Below, in pieces: positions 50,822 through 55,141 of a stretch of DNA of 64,000 nucleotides (position 1 is the stretch's first letter; each line of letters begins with the position of its first letter). The notes below the pieces were generated by a model. The model was not told where the DNA came from and did not search any database. It worked only from the letters and a program-made list of their open reading frames with translations. Both the position numbers and the translations under genes were made by a program. Source of the DNA: Modicisalibacter coralii (lineage in GTDB: Bacteria; Pseudomonadota; Gammaproteobacteria; Pseudomonadales; Halomonadaceae); contig NZ_QWBW01000006.1 of assembly GCF_004117855.1 (NCBI RefSeq), forward strand, positions 1 to 64,000. The letters run 5' to 3'.

Positions 50822-50917
50822 CGGTCAGCGGCGTCATGAGCCAGGAGTGAGCCGGGACGCTGGGCAGCCCGACACGCTTGCAGTAGCATGGTCGGCAAGT
50901 CATTGACGGAGAATGGC

Positions 50918-51817
50918 ATGTCGATCTTCAAGGGGCTCGTCAGCGTGCTGCTGCTGACGGTCAGTACCCTGTTCTGGGCGGTCCCGCTGTATGCGCTGAC
51001 GCTGGCCAAGCTGGTCACCCCGACCCGCCGCTGGCGCCTGCGTGTGCTGGGCGGCCTCAACCGCATCGCCCTGGCCTGGATCGGCACCAACCTGTGGTGG
51101 ATGCGGCGCTGGCTGCGTCCGGTACTGGACATTCATCTGCCCGACGGGCTGTCGCCCCACCAGTGGTGGCTGGTGATCGCCAACCATCGCAGCTGGACCG
51201 ACATCTTCCTGCTGCAGATGGCCCTGCACCGGCGCATTCCCATGCCGCGCTTCTTCCTCAAGCGCGAGCTGATCTGGGTGCCGGTGATCGGGCTGGCCTG
51301 GTGGGCCCTGGAGTTTCCCTTCATGCGCCGCTACAAGCGCGAGGCGCTGGCCCGCAATCCGGCATTGGCCCGCCGCGACCGCGAGGCGACCCAGCGGCTC
51401 TGCGATCAGGCCCGCCAGACGCCCATGGCGATCTACAACTTCGTCGAAGGCACCCGCTTCACCCCGGCCAAGCAACGCGAGCAGGCCAGCCCCTACCGCC
51501 ACCTGCTGCGCCCCAAGGCCGGCGGCAGTGCCCAGGTCATCGGCCTGCTGGGCCGTCAATTGAGCGGCATCCTGGATGTCACCCTCGCCTACGCGCGGGA
51601 ATGCCCGAATTTCTGGGACTTCCTGTGCGGACGCGAAGGGCCGGTCAGCCTGCAGGCGCGGCGCATCGCCGTGCCCGAGTGGATGCTCGAGGGCGATTAT
51701 CATCAGGACCCGGAGTACAAGGAACGCTTTCAGCAATGGCTCAACGCGCTGTGGCAGGAAAAGGATCGCCGGCTCGCCTCCGCGACGGGCTCGGCCGCTA
51801 CCGTGTCGGCGCGCTGA
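50918..51817 (+). CDS. 1-acyl-glycerol-3-phosphate-type acyltransferase (YihG-like)
   Basis: A 299-residue PlsC-family acyltransferase with an N-terminal membrane segment (about 5-27). The catalytic motif NHRSWTD is at 89-95 and the acyl-acceptor motif FVEGTRFTP near 175. Length and PMPRFFLKRELIWVPVIGLA match the YihG/LCLAT-like group, which makes or remodels phosphatidic acid. GGAG lies 6-8 nt before the ATG at 50918. Its last 82 nt overlap the start of the LysM/LytM gene in another frame, if that gene starts at 51736. Confidence 0.88.
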   Translation: MSIFKGLVSVLLLTVSTLFWAVPLYALTLAKLVTPTRRWRLRVLGGLNRIALAWIGTNLWWMRRWLRPVLDIHLPDGLSPHQWWLVIANHRSWTDIFLLQMALHRRIPMPRFFLKRELIWVPVIGLAWWALEFPFMRRYKREALARNPALARRDREATQRLCDQARQTPMAIYNFVEGTRFTPAKQREQASPYRHLLRPKAGGSAQVIGLLGRQLSGILDVTLAYARECPNFWDFLCGREGPVSLQARRIAVPEWMLEGDYHQDPEYKERFQQWLNALWQEKDRRLASATGSAATVSAR

Positions 51818-52701
51818 TACTGCTCCTGCTGTTGCTGAGCGGCTGCGCCAACTCGCCCCGGATCTCCTCCGGCTACACCTCGGTGCTGGCCGGCAACTGG
51901 GTGACCATTCGTTCCGGCGACACCCTGGGCGAAATCGCCCGGCGCGCCGGTGTCCCGCTGGTCCGCCTGCAGCGCTTCAACCCCGGGGTCGATGCCCGCC
52001 ATCTGCGCATCGGCCAGCGCATTCTGGTGCCCAGCCGCCGCGAGCGCGCGCCCTCCGGCGGCCCGTATCGCTACCAGATCCGCCCCGGTGACACCTACAC
52101 GGCCGTCGCGCGTCGCTTCGGCACCACCGCGGGGCGCATCCGTGCCGCCAATCCCGGCCTCGACCCCGCCGATCTCGACGTCGGCCAACTGGTTCGCGTC
52201 CCCCTGTCCGGCGGCACCCGCACCGCCGTTGCCACGCGCAGCACGCGCCAGTCGACGCCGGCCCAGCGCAAGCCCAAACCCAAGTCGACCCGGGCCGTTA
52301 GCCTGCCCGATCCGGGCCCGCTGCCCAAGCAGCGGGCCTGGCCCTGGCCGCTCGACGACTACCGCGTGGTGCGGGCCTTCGGCCGCGACAAGCGCGGCGC
52401 CCTGCAGCCGATGCTGCTCGCCGCCAAGCGCGGCGACGTCGCCCATGCCGTGGCCGATGGCGACGTCCGCTTCGCCAGCACCATGCGGCAACTGGGGCAT
52501 GTGGTGATCGTCCACCACGACGGCAACCTGCAGACCGTCTACGCGCTGTGCGACAAGCTCGAGGTTCGCGAGGGACAGACGATCGCCGCCGGCACGCCGG
52601 TCTGCACGGTCGGCTACAGCAACGTCACCCACCGCTACGACCTGCTCTTCGACGTCCGTCACGGCGGCAAGCCCATCGACCCGCGCAAGGTGCTGCGCTG
52701 A
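51736..52701 (+). CDS. LysM/LytM-domain lipoprotein, NlpD-like, catalytic residues absent
   Basis: A 321-residue lipoprotein precursor. A basic N-region is followed by GALILLLLLLSGC, a lipobox ending about residue 37. Two LysM domains bind peptidoglycan: VTIRSGDTLGEIARRAGVPL and YQIRPGDTYTAVARRFGTTA. A Lys/Pro/Arg/Ser linker leads to a C-terminal LytM (M23) domain, VVIVHHDGNLQTVYALCDKL. The zinc motifs HxxxD and HxH of active enzymes are replaced (the last reads YDLLFDVR), so it is probably an amidase activator like NlpD. The ATG at 51736 lacks a clear ribosome-binding site; a GTG at 51751 is the alternative. Confidence 0.78.
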   Translation: MAQRAVAGKGSPARLRDGLGRYRVGALILLLLLLSGCANSPRISSGYTSVLAGNWVTIRSGDTLGEIARRAGVPLVRLQRFNPGVDARHLRIGQRILVPSRRERAPSGGPYRYQIRPGDTYTAVARRFGTTAGRIRAANPGLDPADLDVGQLVRVPLSGGTRTAVATRSTRQSTPAQRKPKPKSTRAVSLPDPGPLPKQRAWPWPLDDYRVVRAFGRDKRGALQPMLLAAKRGDVAHAVADGDVRFASTMRQLGHVVIVHHDGNLQTVYALCDKLEVREGQTIAAGTPVCTVGYSNVTHRYDLLFDVRHGGKPIDPRKVLR

Positions 52702-52731
52702 GGCCGGCGGCGTCACACACTGTTCACCGCG

Positions 52732-52749
52732 CTGTCGTGTCGCTGTCAT
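52732..52749 (+). promoter_or_regulatory. Pho-box-like direct repeat
   Basis: CTGTCGT (52732-52738), four bases GTCG, then CTGTCAT (52743-52749): two 7-bp direct repeats at 11-bp spacing, the architecture of a PhoB box (CTGTCAT-N4-CTGTCAT), 13 of 14 bases matching. A weaker CTGTTCA at 52720 may be a further half site. It ends 51 nt before the GT4 start, and GATGCT at 52760-52765 could be a weak -10. This suggests phosphate-starvation control of the GT4-PAP2 pair. Confidence 0.6.
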
Positions 52750-52800
52750 CCCCGGCGGCGATGCTGACCCCGTCGCTCATTCGACGCGGGAGACACGCGC

Positions 52801-53955
52801 ATGCGCATCGCCATGGTCAGCGAGACCTGGGCACCGGACATCAACGGGGTGGCGCACACCCTCGGCCAGTTGAGTCGCGAACTGCATCGACGCGGGGTGT
52901 CGATTCAACTGGTACGCCCGGCGCCCCGGGAGCCGGGACGCGCCGAGCACGTCGCCAGCGAACTCCAGGTCCGCGGATTTCGCGCGCCGGGCTACCCCGA
53001 CGTGCAACTGGGCCTGCCCACTCGCCGCCGGCTGCTCGCCCTGTGGCGCGAGCAGCGCCCCGATGCCATCTACGTCGCCACCGAAGGCCCGCTGGGCTGG
53101 TCGGCGCTGAATGCCGCCCGACGCCTCGGTATCCCGGTGGTCAGCGGCTTTCACACCAACTTCGACCACTACGCGGGGGATTACGGCTGGCGCTGGCTGG
53201 CCTGGCCGGTGCGCGCCGTGCTGCGCCATTTCCACAACCGGACCCGGGCCACGCTGGTGCCCACCCGGCAACGCGCCGACGAGCTGGCGCGTTGCGGCTT
53301 CCGCGGCGTCCGCGTCATGGCCCGCGGCATCGATACCCGCCACTTCGGCCCGCATCGCCGGGACCCGGCCCTGCGTCGGGCGTGGGGCGTGGACCCACAG
53401 CAGCCGGTACTGCTGCATGTCGGCCGCCTCGCCCAGGAAAAGAACCTCGATCTGCTGATCGAGAGCTATCGCGCGATGCGCGCCACGAGCCCCGCCCTGC
53501 AGCTGGTGATCGTCGGCGACGGGCCGCTGCGCGGCGAACTCGAACGCCGCCTCCCCGAGGCCATCTATACCGGCTTCGTCGATAGCGATTCGCTGGCGCG
53601 GCACTATGCCAGCGCCGATCTGTTCGTGTTCCCCTCGCGTTCGGAAACCTACGGCAACGTGGTCCTCGAGGCGATGGCCAGCGAGCTGGGCATCGTCGCC
53701 TTCGATTACGCCGCGGCGGCCGCGATGATCGAGACGGGACATCACGGCTTCACGGTCGCGCTCGACGACGACCAGGGCTTCATCGACGCGGCCCTCGCGC
53801 TGTGTCGCAACCCGGGCCTCGCCGCCCGTCTGGGGCGCGCGGCCCGCCTGCGCGTCGAGCCCCAGGGCTGGTCGTCGATCGCCGACGACTTCCTGGCCAC
53901 GCTACGTCACGTTCAGGAGACGCCTCATGACACACCGCAACCTTCCGGCGTTTGA
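52801..53955 (+). CDS. GT4-family glycosyltransferase (glycolipid type)
   Basis: A 384-residue glycosyltransferase with two Rossmann domains. The start MRIAMVSETWAPDINGVAHT, SGFHTNFDHYAGDYGW, LHVGRLAQEKNLDLLIESY and the EX7E motif in SETYGNVVLEAMA are those of the MgtA/diglucosyl-diacylglycerol-synthase-like GT4 group, which transfers hexoses to diacylglycerol or related lipids. GGGAG lies before the ATG, and a Pho-box-like repeat is 51 nt upstream. The next gene, PAP2, overlaps by 29 nt, so the pair is coupled. PAP2 could supply diacylglycerol for it. Sugar donor and acceptor are not proven by sequence. Confidence 0.85.
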   Translation: MRIAMVSETWAPDINGVAHTLGQLSRELHRRGVSIQLVRPAPREPGRAEHVASELQVRGFRAPGYPDVQLGLPTRRRLLALWREQRPDAIYVATEGPLGWSALNAARRLGIPVVSGFHTNFDHYAGDYGWRWLAWPVRAVLRHFHNRTRATLVPTRQRADELARCGFRGVRVMARGIDTRHFGPHRRDPALRRAWGVDPQQPVLLHVGRLAQEKNLDLLIESYRAMRATSPALQLVIVGDGPLRGELERRLPEAIYTGFVDSDSLARHYASADLFVFPSRSETYGNVVLEAMASELGIVAFDYAAAAAMIETGHHGFTVALDDDQGFIDAALALCRNPGLAARLGRAARLRVEPQGWSSIADDFLATLRHVQETPHDTPQPSGV

Positions 53956-54475
53956 ACGACTCGATACCCTGGAATGGCAGGCCTGCCACCGGCTGGCCTG
54001 TTACAGCCGCTATCGAATGATCCTCTGGCTGTTCCGCTTCGCCAGCCGGGTCGGCGACTGGCCCGCCTGGGTGCTTCTGACACTCGTGGTGAGCCTCTCC
54101 GACGACACCCAGGGCTGGCGTACCGGCTTGCAGTTCGCCGCCACCGCGGCCGTCGGCGCGCTGGTCTACCGGCTGCTCAAGACCCGGCTGTGCCGCGAGC
54201 GCCCCTACATCACCTTCAAGCAGATCCCCTGCACCATGCCACCGCTGGATCGCTACAGCTTCCCCAGCGGGCACACCCTGCACGCTGTGAGCTTCTGTAC
54301 CCTGACGATCGCCCTGGCCCCGGCGCTGATCCCCTGGATCGCGCCGCTGGCGCTGTTGATCGCCCTGTCACGGGTGGTGCTGGGTCTGCATTACCTCAGC
54401 GATGTCGCCGCCGGCGCCCTGCTCGGCTACCTGCTGGCCAGCGCCAGTGTCTGGCTGTACCCGTTGCCGGTGTGA
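53927..54475 (+). CDS. PAP2-family membrane phosphatase
   Basis: A 182-residue membrane phosphatase. The three-part phosphatase signature is complete: KTRLCRERPY (KX6RP), PSGHTLHAVS and SRVVLGLHYLSD (SRX5HX3D). Four to five membrane segments surround it. Family members hydrolyse phosphatidic acid, phosphatidylglycerol phosphate or undecaprenyl pyrophosphate. AGGAGACGCCTC precedes the ATG. Overlap with the GT4 gene makes a lipid-phosphate substrate likely; production of diacylglycerol for the glycosyltransferase is inference. Confidence 0.88.
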   Translation: MTHRNLPAFERLDTLEWQACHRLACYSRYRMILWLFRFASRVGDWPAWVLLTLVVSLSDDTQGWRTGLQFAATAAVGALVYRLLKTRLCRERPYITFKQIPCTMPPLDRYSFPSGHTLHAVSFCTLTIALAPALIPWIAPLALLIALSRVVLGLHYLSDVAAGALLGYLLASASVWLYPLPV

Positions 54476-54523: not shown

Positions 54524-55141
54524 ATGACCGAATCGAACCCTCCCAACTGGCAGCGACTACTCGACTCGCCCCCACTCTGGCGGCTCGACGGTGCCGTCAC
54601 GGCCGAGGCGGGGTGGCGCCTGCTCGAACGGCTCGACCGCGAGATTCCCTGGGAGACACCGACCCTGACCCTGTACGGCCGCCGCCACCCGATCCCGCGC
54701 TCGCAGTGCTGGATGGGCGACGCCGAGGCCCGCTACCGCTATTCCGGCCAGGACTTCGCGCCCCGGCCCTGGCATCCCGCGGTGAAGGAACTCGGCGAGC
54801 GGGCCCGGGCGCTGATCGACCAGTTGGGCGTGACGTCCGACGTCAACAGCGTGCTGCTCAACCGCTACCGCGACGGCGAGGAGAGCATGGGCTGGCATGC
54901 CGACGACGAGCCGGAACTGGGTCATGAACCGGTGGTCGCCGCGCTCAGCCTGGGCGCCGAGCGGCCCTTGCGATTCCGCCGGCGCCAGCCGCCGCGCGAC
55001 CCCTTCAACGTCTGGCTGCCCCACGCCAGCCTGCTGGTCATGGGGGCGGGCGTCCAGGAATGCCTGCAGCATGCGCTGCTGCCGCGCGCCATTCCCGGCC
55101 TGCGGATCAGCCTGACGTTTCGTCGCGTCATGCCGGGCTGA
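54524..55141 (+). CDS. alkB: Alpha-ketoglutarate-dependent DNA repair dioxygenase AlkB
   Basis: Iron- and 2-oxoglutarate-dependent demethylase for alkylated bases. The 205-residue protein has the iron ligands His125, Asp127 (GWHADDEPELG) and His183 (LQHALLPR), and the 2-oxoglutarate-binding arginines 194 and 200 in GLRISLTFRR. LLNRYRDGEESMGWH is the family lead-in. This is the bacterial AlkB-2/3-like subgroup, shorter than E. coli AlkB at its N-terminus. No clear Shine-Dalgarno is visible. It lies 48 nt after the PAP2 gene; no ada gene is near. Confidence 0.9.
   Translation: MTESNPPNWQRLLDSPPLWRLDGAVTAEAGWRLLERLDREIPWETPTLTLYGRRHPIPRSQCWMGDAEARYRYSGQDFAPRPWHPAVKELGERARALIDQLGVTSDVNSVLLNRYRDGEESMGWHADDEPELGHEPVVAALSLGAERPLRFRRRQPPRDPFNVWLPHASLLVMGAGVQECLQHALLPRAIPGLRISLTFRRVMPG

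Follow-up and report, generated by a model that had tools for sequence, protein, structure and literature searches.

Sequence comparison across related genomes suggests that two overlapping genes of Modicisalibacter coralii, one for a GT4 glycosyltransferase and one for a PAP2 membrane phosphatase, probably form an operon that PhoB activates and that serves to remodel membrane lipids. The pair lies in the window, the 64,000-nt stretch of DNA analysed here, downstream of an array of putative PhoB half-sites that most GT4 orthologues also have upstream, within the family as well as in Pseudomonas and the wider class.

The GT4 gene occupies positions 52801–53955 and the PAP2 gene positions 53927–54475, both on the forward strand, and the open reading frame listing of the window confirms that they overlap by 29 nt (53927–53955), as the first-pass annotation had stated. 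The Pfam domains agree with the two assignments: PF13439 and PF13692, both GT4 domains, are found in the first protein, and PF01569 in the second (76.7 bits, cut-off 27.2). Two sequences resembling ribosome-binding sites can be read on the same strand, CGGGAGA at 52787–52793 ahead of GT4, and CAGGAGA at 53914–53920, which lies within the GT4 gene and would serve PAP2. The overlap is conserved, with an ATG at −29 (30 loci), −32, −38 or −11 from the GT4 stop codon in 46 of 50 family loci, these offsets having been picked after inspection of the family loci, and this conservation makes translational coupling of PAP2 to GT4 probable. Directly 5′ of the pair (50888–52701) are genes for a YihG-family LPAAT and a LysM-M23 peptidase, which are also found upstream of GT4 in loci L111 and L112. 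Directly 3′ of PAP2 (54524–55141) is a gene for an AlkB-like 2OG-Fe(II) oxygenase, a relative of which holds the same place in L114.

The Pho-box-like repeat that the first-pass annotation had placed before GT4, CTGTCGT-N4-CTGTCAT, is present at 52732–52749, where it matches 13 of 14 bases, with one mismatch to CTGTCATNNNNCTGTCAT, and ends 51 nt before the GT4 ATG. These two units, the only ones caught earlier, are the last of a four-unit array of putative PhoB half-sites with an 11-nt period (52710–52749, forward strand), which is made up of GCGTCAC (52710–52716), TGTTCAC (52721–52727), CTGTCGT (52732–52738) and CTGTCAT (52743–52749). A −10-like hexamer, GATGCT (52760–52765, forward strand), starts 10 nt past the last half-site. 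The raw box is in itself no evidence at a tolerance of up to 3 mismatches, since the window then holds 3 matches against 3.4 expected by chance.

Across the 4.44-Mb genome, 7 places lie within one mismatch of the Pho box, compared with an estimated 1.4 or so for random sequence with equal base frequencies, and 24 sites lie within two mismatches, compared with 7 for the backward pattern. Of the 7 best sites, one stands before a PstS-like gene, two that overlap each other are found between PstS-like and PstC-like genes, and one is the GT4–PAP2 site, which thus ranks with the pst-like sites, in a tie by mismatch count to the consensus rather than by a trained weight matrix. The names of these reference genes rest on best NCBIfam matches that fall under the curated cut-offs: TIGR02136 at 155.9 and 203.8 bits (cut-off 206.6) for the PstS-like proteins, and TIGR02138 at 63.9 bits (cut-off 196) for the PstC-like protein, whose frame is cut by the end of the locus. 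The other three are putative 13/14 sites at G000:C12:16380 (L004), G000:C8:57957 (L003) and G000:C70:78623 (L007), which precede, in turn, an EAL-domain gene, hemB and a gene for a TctD/PmrA-like response regulator. The genome also encodes PhoB itself (351.7 bits, curated cut-off 296.2), with a partial array upstream of its gene.

Conservation upstream of orthologues shows that the site is real and beyond chance. GT4 orthologues occur in 54 of 61 family genomes, and upstream regions were read for 50 family, 26 Pseudomonas-family and 56 other order or class loci, all counts treating related genomes that are not independent of one another. For GTCA pairs that lie 4–40 nt from each other within 200 nt upstream of GT4, spacings of 11, 22 or 33 nt account for 75 of 101 family pairs, 27 of 35 Pseudomonas-family pairs and 37 of 53 pairs from the other order and class loci; the corresponding fractions for an ACTG control on the 11-nt period are 0/5, 0/5 and 4/9, a weak comparison with few pairs. 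When the four-unit array is scored at different steps, the mean at step 11 is 18.9, 18.8 and 17.3 for the family, Pseudomonas-family and order/class loci, against 12.8 to 14.3 at steps 7–10 and 12–15, and step 11 is the sole best or tied among steps 7–15 in 45/50, 24/26 and 41/56 of the regions. The true consensus reaches at least 10/14 in 82% of family, 81% of Pseudomonas and 66% of order/class regions (61 loci in this last set, five of them family loci), compared with 8%, 4% and 7% for shuffles and with 40%, 4% and 38% for the backward consensus, a weak control that still contains CTGTC.

The −10-like element is conserved as well. In 34 family loci chosen for their array, those left of the 50 once six near-duplicates, nine loci with scores below 17 and one row that was too short had been set aside, position +11 is always A and position +15 always T, and neither position played a part in the array scoring. 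In the order/class set the A is found in 25 and the T in 27 of 29 loci. In Pseudomonas, many of the regions upstream of GT4 likewise contain the array, with a GACACTG-like motif after it. Several observations count against this reading: nine of the 50 family regions score below 17, and for four of these (G016, G017, G018 and G037) a clear array is not seen upstream of GT4; another step outscores 11 in 15 of the 56 order/class loci; and at the locus of G257, which serves best as a substitute for P. aeruginosa, the four-unit array scores no more than 15. Taken together, the conserved array and −10 element and the sites of equal quality at the pst-like genes support the proposed control of the pair by PhoB.

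The GT4 protein groups beside a published glucuronosyl-diacylglycerol (GADG) synthase. A tree of 117 proteins built by a quick method places the window GT4 family as the sister of the Pseudomonas Agt2-locus clade (SH-aLRT 95), and the PlcP-linked Agt1 proteins fall apart from it, the window GT4 lying outside their clade. Not included in this tree were the broken L070, eleven family rows, most of them near-duplicates, and 16 of another 20 Pseudomonas loci. The window GT4 is 51% identical to that of G257, which represents P. aeruginosa PA0842 here, so the figure refers to the G257 protein. Reading of the sequences at its locus (L218) gives the gene order GGDEF–CysZ–(PlcH-type motif)–GT4–DegV–OYE, and we take CysZ, GGDEF, DegV and OYE to be the PAO1 neighbours of PA0842. 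This order fits the PA0842 locus, since PMC5150637 places PA0843, PA0844 and PA0845 (plcR, plcH and cerN) next to PA0842. Tree and synteny thus both identify the window GT4 as an orthologue of Agt2. According to PMC8528852, Agt2 makes GADG from diacylglycerol and UDP-glucuronate, and its gene carries a Pho box and is induced when phosphate is low; PA0842 and PA3219 also appear in a table of the most raised biofilm genes in PMC8627541. The glycolipid role first suggested for the window GT4 is accordingly well supported by homology, through its family's sister relationship with the Pseudomonas Agt2-locus enzymes. Some relatives carry further GT4 genes. Class loci L267, L275, L277, L281, L282 and L284 carry a second, more distant GT4 (27–34% identity, with its own clade in the tree) in the neighbourhood of the Agt2-type gene and its PAP2 or PlcP, and in loci L093, L094 and L095 (family f38) two Agt2-like GT4 genes lie about 9–11 kb apart, only one of them with a PAP2.

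The PAP2 protein has the three-part motif and the fold of its superfamily. The motifs K-x6-RP, PSGH and SR-x5-H-x3-D, a pattern that we take to be the catalytic motif, are intact, and K85, R92, P93, S114, G115, H116, S148, R149, H155 and D159 are invariant among 43 sequences. The predicted model (pLDDT 95) superimposes on A. aeolicus LpxE with a Z-score of 21.1 (2.0 Å over 164 residues), on B. subtilis PgpB with a Z-score of 19.4 and on E. coli PgpB with a Z-score of 15.6. The modelled fold is therefore nearer to LpxE than to E. coli PgpB, and it does not discriminate between substrates.

In 51 of 54 family genomes GT4 has a PAP2 gene next to it or a short way downstream (G002, G023 and G025 have none there). 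The same holds for 13 of 23 genomes from the rest of the order and for 33 of the 38 class genomes beyond the order that could be assessed, PlcP standing between the two genes in four of these 33. These counts leave out G430, where the contig stops at GT4, and in the order and class only genomes with a best GT4 match of E 1e-70 or stronger were taken to have the Agt2 type. The pair is widespread in the class and is not peculiar to this genome. No PAP2 was seen beside GT4 in the 26 Pseudomonas-family loci read, for twenty of which the 2 kb downstream were read with a best PAP2 match of E 0.018. Searches of whole genomes gave no PAP2 match at E 1e-15 for G179 or G203, and for G257 a single weak one of 63 bits that is unlinked; G395 and G584 are PAP2-less by adjacency only, and both have a PAP2 relative elsewhere. 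The tree points to a loss of PAP2 in Pseudomonas. Family f15 includes two genomes (L102 and L293) with a PAP2 after an Agt1-like GT4, the GT4 at L102 belonging to the Agt1 clade; no PlcP was found in these two genomes, and this may be a separate pairing.

It had been proposed that PAP2 could stand in for the lipase PlcP, and as stated this is not supported for the window genome. The window genome has a stand-alone PlcP homologue, unlinked to the pair (G000:C17:41292-42113; L118, L076), that is 41–43% identical to the PlcP of PlcP–Agt1 pairs, has conserved residues that are presumably metal ligands and is preceded by its own four-unit array; elsewhere PlcP and PAP2 occur together beside GT4. 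Simple replacement in the window genome is therefore rejected. Among family PlcP loci, step 11 is the best of steps 9–13 in 12 of 19.

Across genomes the relationship is less simple. PlcP is present in 19/61 family, 76/194 order and 103/369 class genomes, a genome being scored as lacking it when nothing matched at E 1e-30 in the family or at 1e-40 in the order and class, with the interrupted PlcP of G059 counted as present and weak PlcP-like matches in L264 and L269 (25–26% identity) not counted. It is found in 16 of 18 genomes whose Agt2-type GT4 lacks an adjacent PAP2 (G430 left out) and in 48 of 97 whose GT4 has one, and 49 of the 97 genomes with the pair have no detected PlcP. A Fisher test of this complementarity gives p 0.006 over 62 non-family rows, p 0.007 for order rows and p 0.30 for class rows, in a setup that treats related genomes as independent, enters G430 as PAP2-less and omits the two family genomes with neither gene, so that the pattern is suggestive only. 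In the family alone, PlcP is present in 19/54 genomes with GT4 and in 0/7 without it (p 0.09). Near GT4, within about 3.5 kb, PlcP is found in 6/39 class loci, five of which also have a PAP2. Two genomes, G023 and G025, have GT4 with neither PAP2 nor PlcP detected, which counts against a role of PAP2 as supplier. What stands of the original proposal is that PAP2 may act as a substitute in the many GT4–PAP2 genomes without detected PlcP.

In the mechanism that we favour, phosphorylated PhoB would bind the four half-sites at 52710–52749 when phosphate is scarce and recruit RNA polymerase to the −10 element at 52760–52765. The Agt2-type GT4 would then transfer glucuronic acid, and perhaps also glucose, from a UDP-sugar onto diacylglycerol on the cytoplasmic side, and the resulting phosphorus-free glycolipid would replace phosphorus-containing membrane lipids. 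PAP2, made by translational coupling, would dephosphorylate its candidate substrate phosphatidic acid at the membrane, which would both yield diacylglycerol for GT4 and free phosphate; supply of diacylglycerol from this substrate is the most likely role for PAP2. In the window genome the separately encoded and probably PhoB-controlled PlcP would be a second source of diacylglycerol, and in about half of the pair-bearing relatives PAP2 is possibly the main one. This proposal is weakened by topology, as the active site of PAP2 is expected to face the periplasm and that of GT4 the cytoplasm.

The main competing explanation, which we regard as unlikely but of real weight, is that GT4 draws the diacylglycerol for its glycolipid from PlcP or some other source and that PAP2 is co-induced for a different job that saves or recycles phosphate, for example the dephosphorylation of undecaprenyl-pyrophosphate, the lipid A 1-phosphate or phosphatidylglycerophosphate. 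PAP2 may well do something else, since it co-occurs with PlcP in the window genome and in nearly half of the pair-bearing genomes. The presence in the window genome of a PlcP homologue with its own array, the clusters that hold GT4, PlcP and PAP2 together and the two genomes with GT4 and neither partner all fit this explanation, as do the proximity of the fold to LpxE and the best NCBIfam match of PAP2, an undecaprenyl-diphosphatase model (49 bits, cut-off 250). It accounts less readily for the pair-bearing genomes without detected PlcP, for the conserved overlap, which suggests a common pathway, and for G179 and G203, which have GT4 and PlcP and no PAP2 match.

Two further alternatives bear on GT4 and on the promoter. 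GpgS is the best NCBIfam match of GT4, and a GpgS-like enzyme would glycosylate phosphatidylglycerol instead of diacylglycerol; however, its 163 bits fall far short of the 480-bit cut-off, the same genome encodes a true GpgS (601 bits) elsewhere, and GpgS forms a separate clade in the tree (support 100). We reject that identity for the window GT4 and hold the corresponding activity to be highly improbable. Still less credible is a chance match of the box before a pair outside Pho control. Three of the seven best genome sites do precede genes with no obvious phosphate role, but chance would hardly keep the 11-nt periodicity and the −10 element over many genera and in Pseudomonas.

On a broader view, we tentatively propose, at somewhat less than even odds, that the GT4–PAP2 pair is an old and widespread gammaproteobacterial glycolipid module with a dedicated PhoB-controlled phosphatidate phosphatase, which would allow remodelling without PlcP. 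In the parts of the literature examined, the replacement of membrane lipids by phosphorus-free ones in proteobacteria is attributed mainly to PlcP, and a search mostly outside the subscription literature found no paper recognisable by title or abstract as describing a Pho-controlled GT4–PAP2 pair. A P. aeruginosa plcP mutant keeps a little GADG, from which another supply of diacylglycerol was inferred (PMC8528852). A phosphatase that overlaps an orthologue of the GADG synthase is a candidate for such a PlcP-independent supply in other bacteria and, if the proposal is true, the two-gene module may hint at the unexplained supply in P. aeruginosa. The pair would also let lipid remodelling be predicted in genomes that lack PlcP.

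Among known systems, the closest is Agt2 of the PlcP–Agt pathway of Pseudomonas aeruginosa (PMC8528852), which has in common with the window system a sister-clade GT4 (51% to G257), an 11-nt Pho array upstream and a PlcP homologue in the genome, and differs in that the window GT4 is overlapped by a PAP2 that no Pseudomonas-family locus read has beside GT4. The PlcP–Agt1 operon (PA3219–PA3218) likewise links a lipase, to which the window genome has a homologue, and a GT4 for glycolipids to Pho control, but the window GT4 is outside the Agt1 clade and does not adjoin PlcP. GpgS of gpgSDF (PMC12713373) is also a GT4 acting on a glycerolipid, in a clade separate from the window enzyme. PgpB and LpxE share the fold and catalytic motifs of the window PAP2 at about 20% identity. 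Two sources of diacylglycerol are described in PMC4796936, the dephosphorylation of phosphatidate and a phospholipase C such as PlcP, and the first of them is suggested there for cyanobacteria. The order of steps proposed here, from phosphatidic acid to diacylglycerol to glycolipid, resembles that cyanobacterial route, and differs from it in that the candidate phosphatase overlaps its glycosyltransferase in a putative proteobacterial Pho operon.
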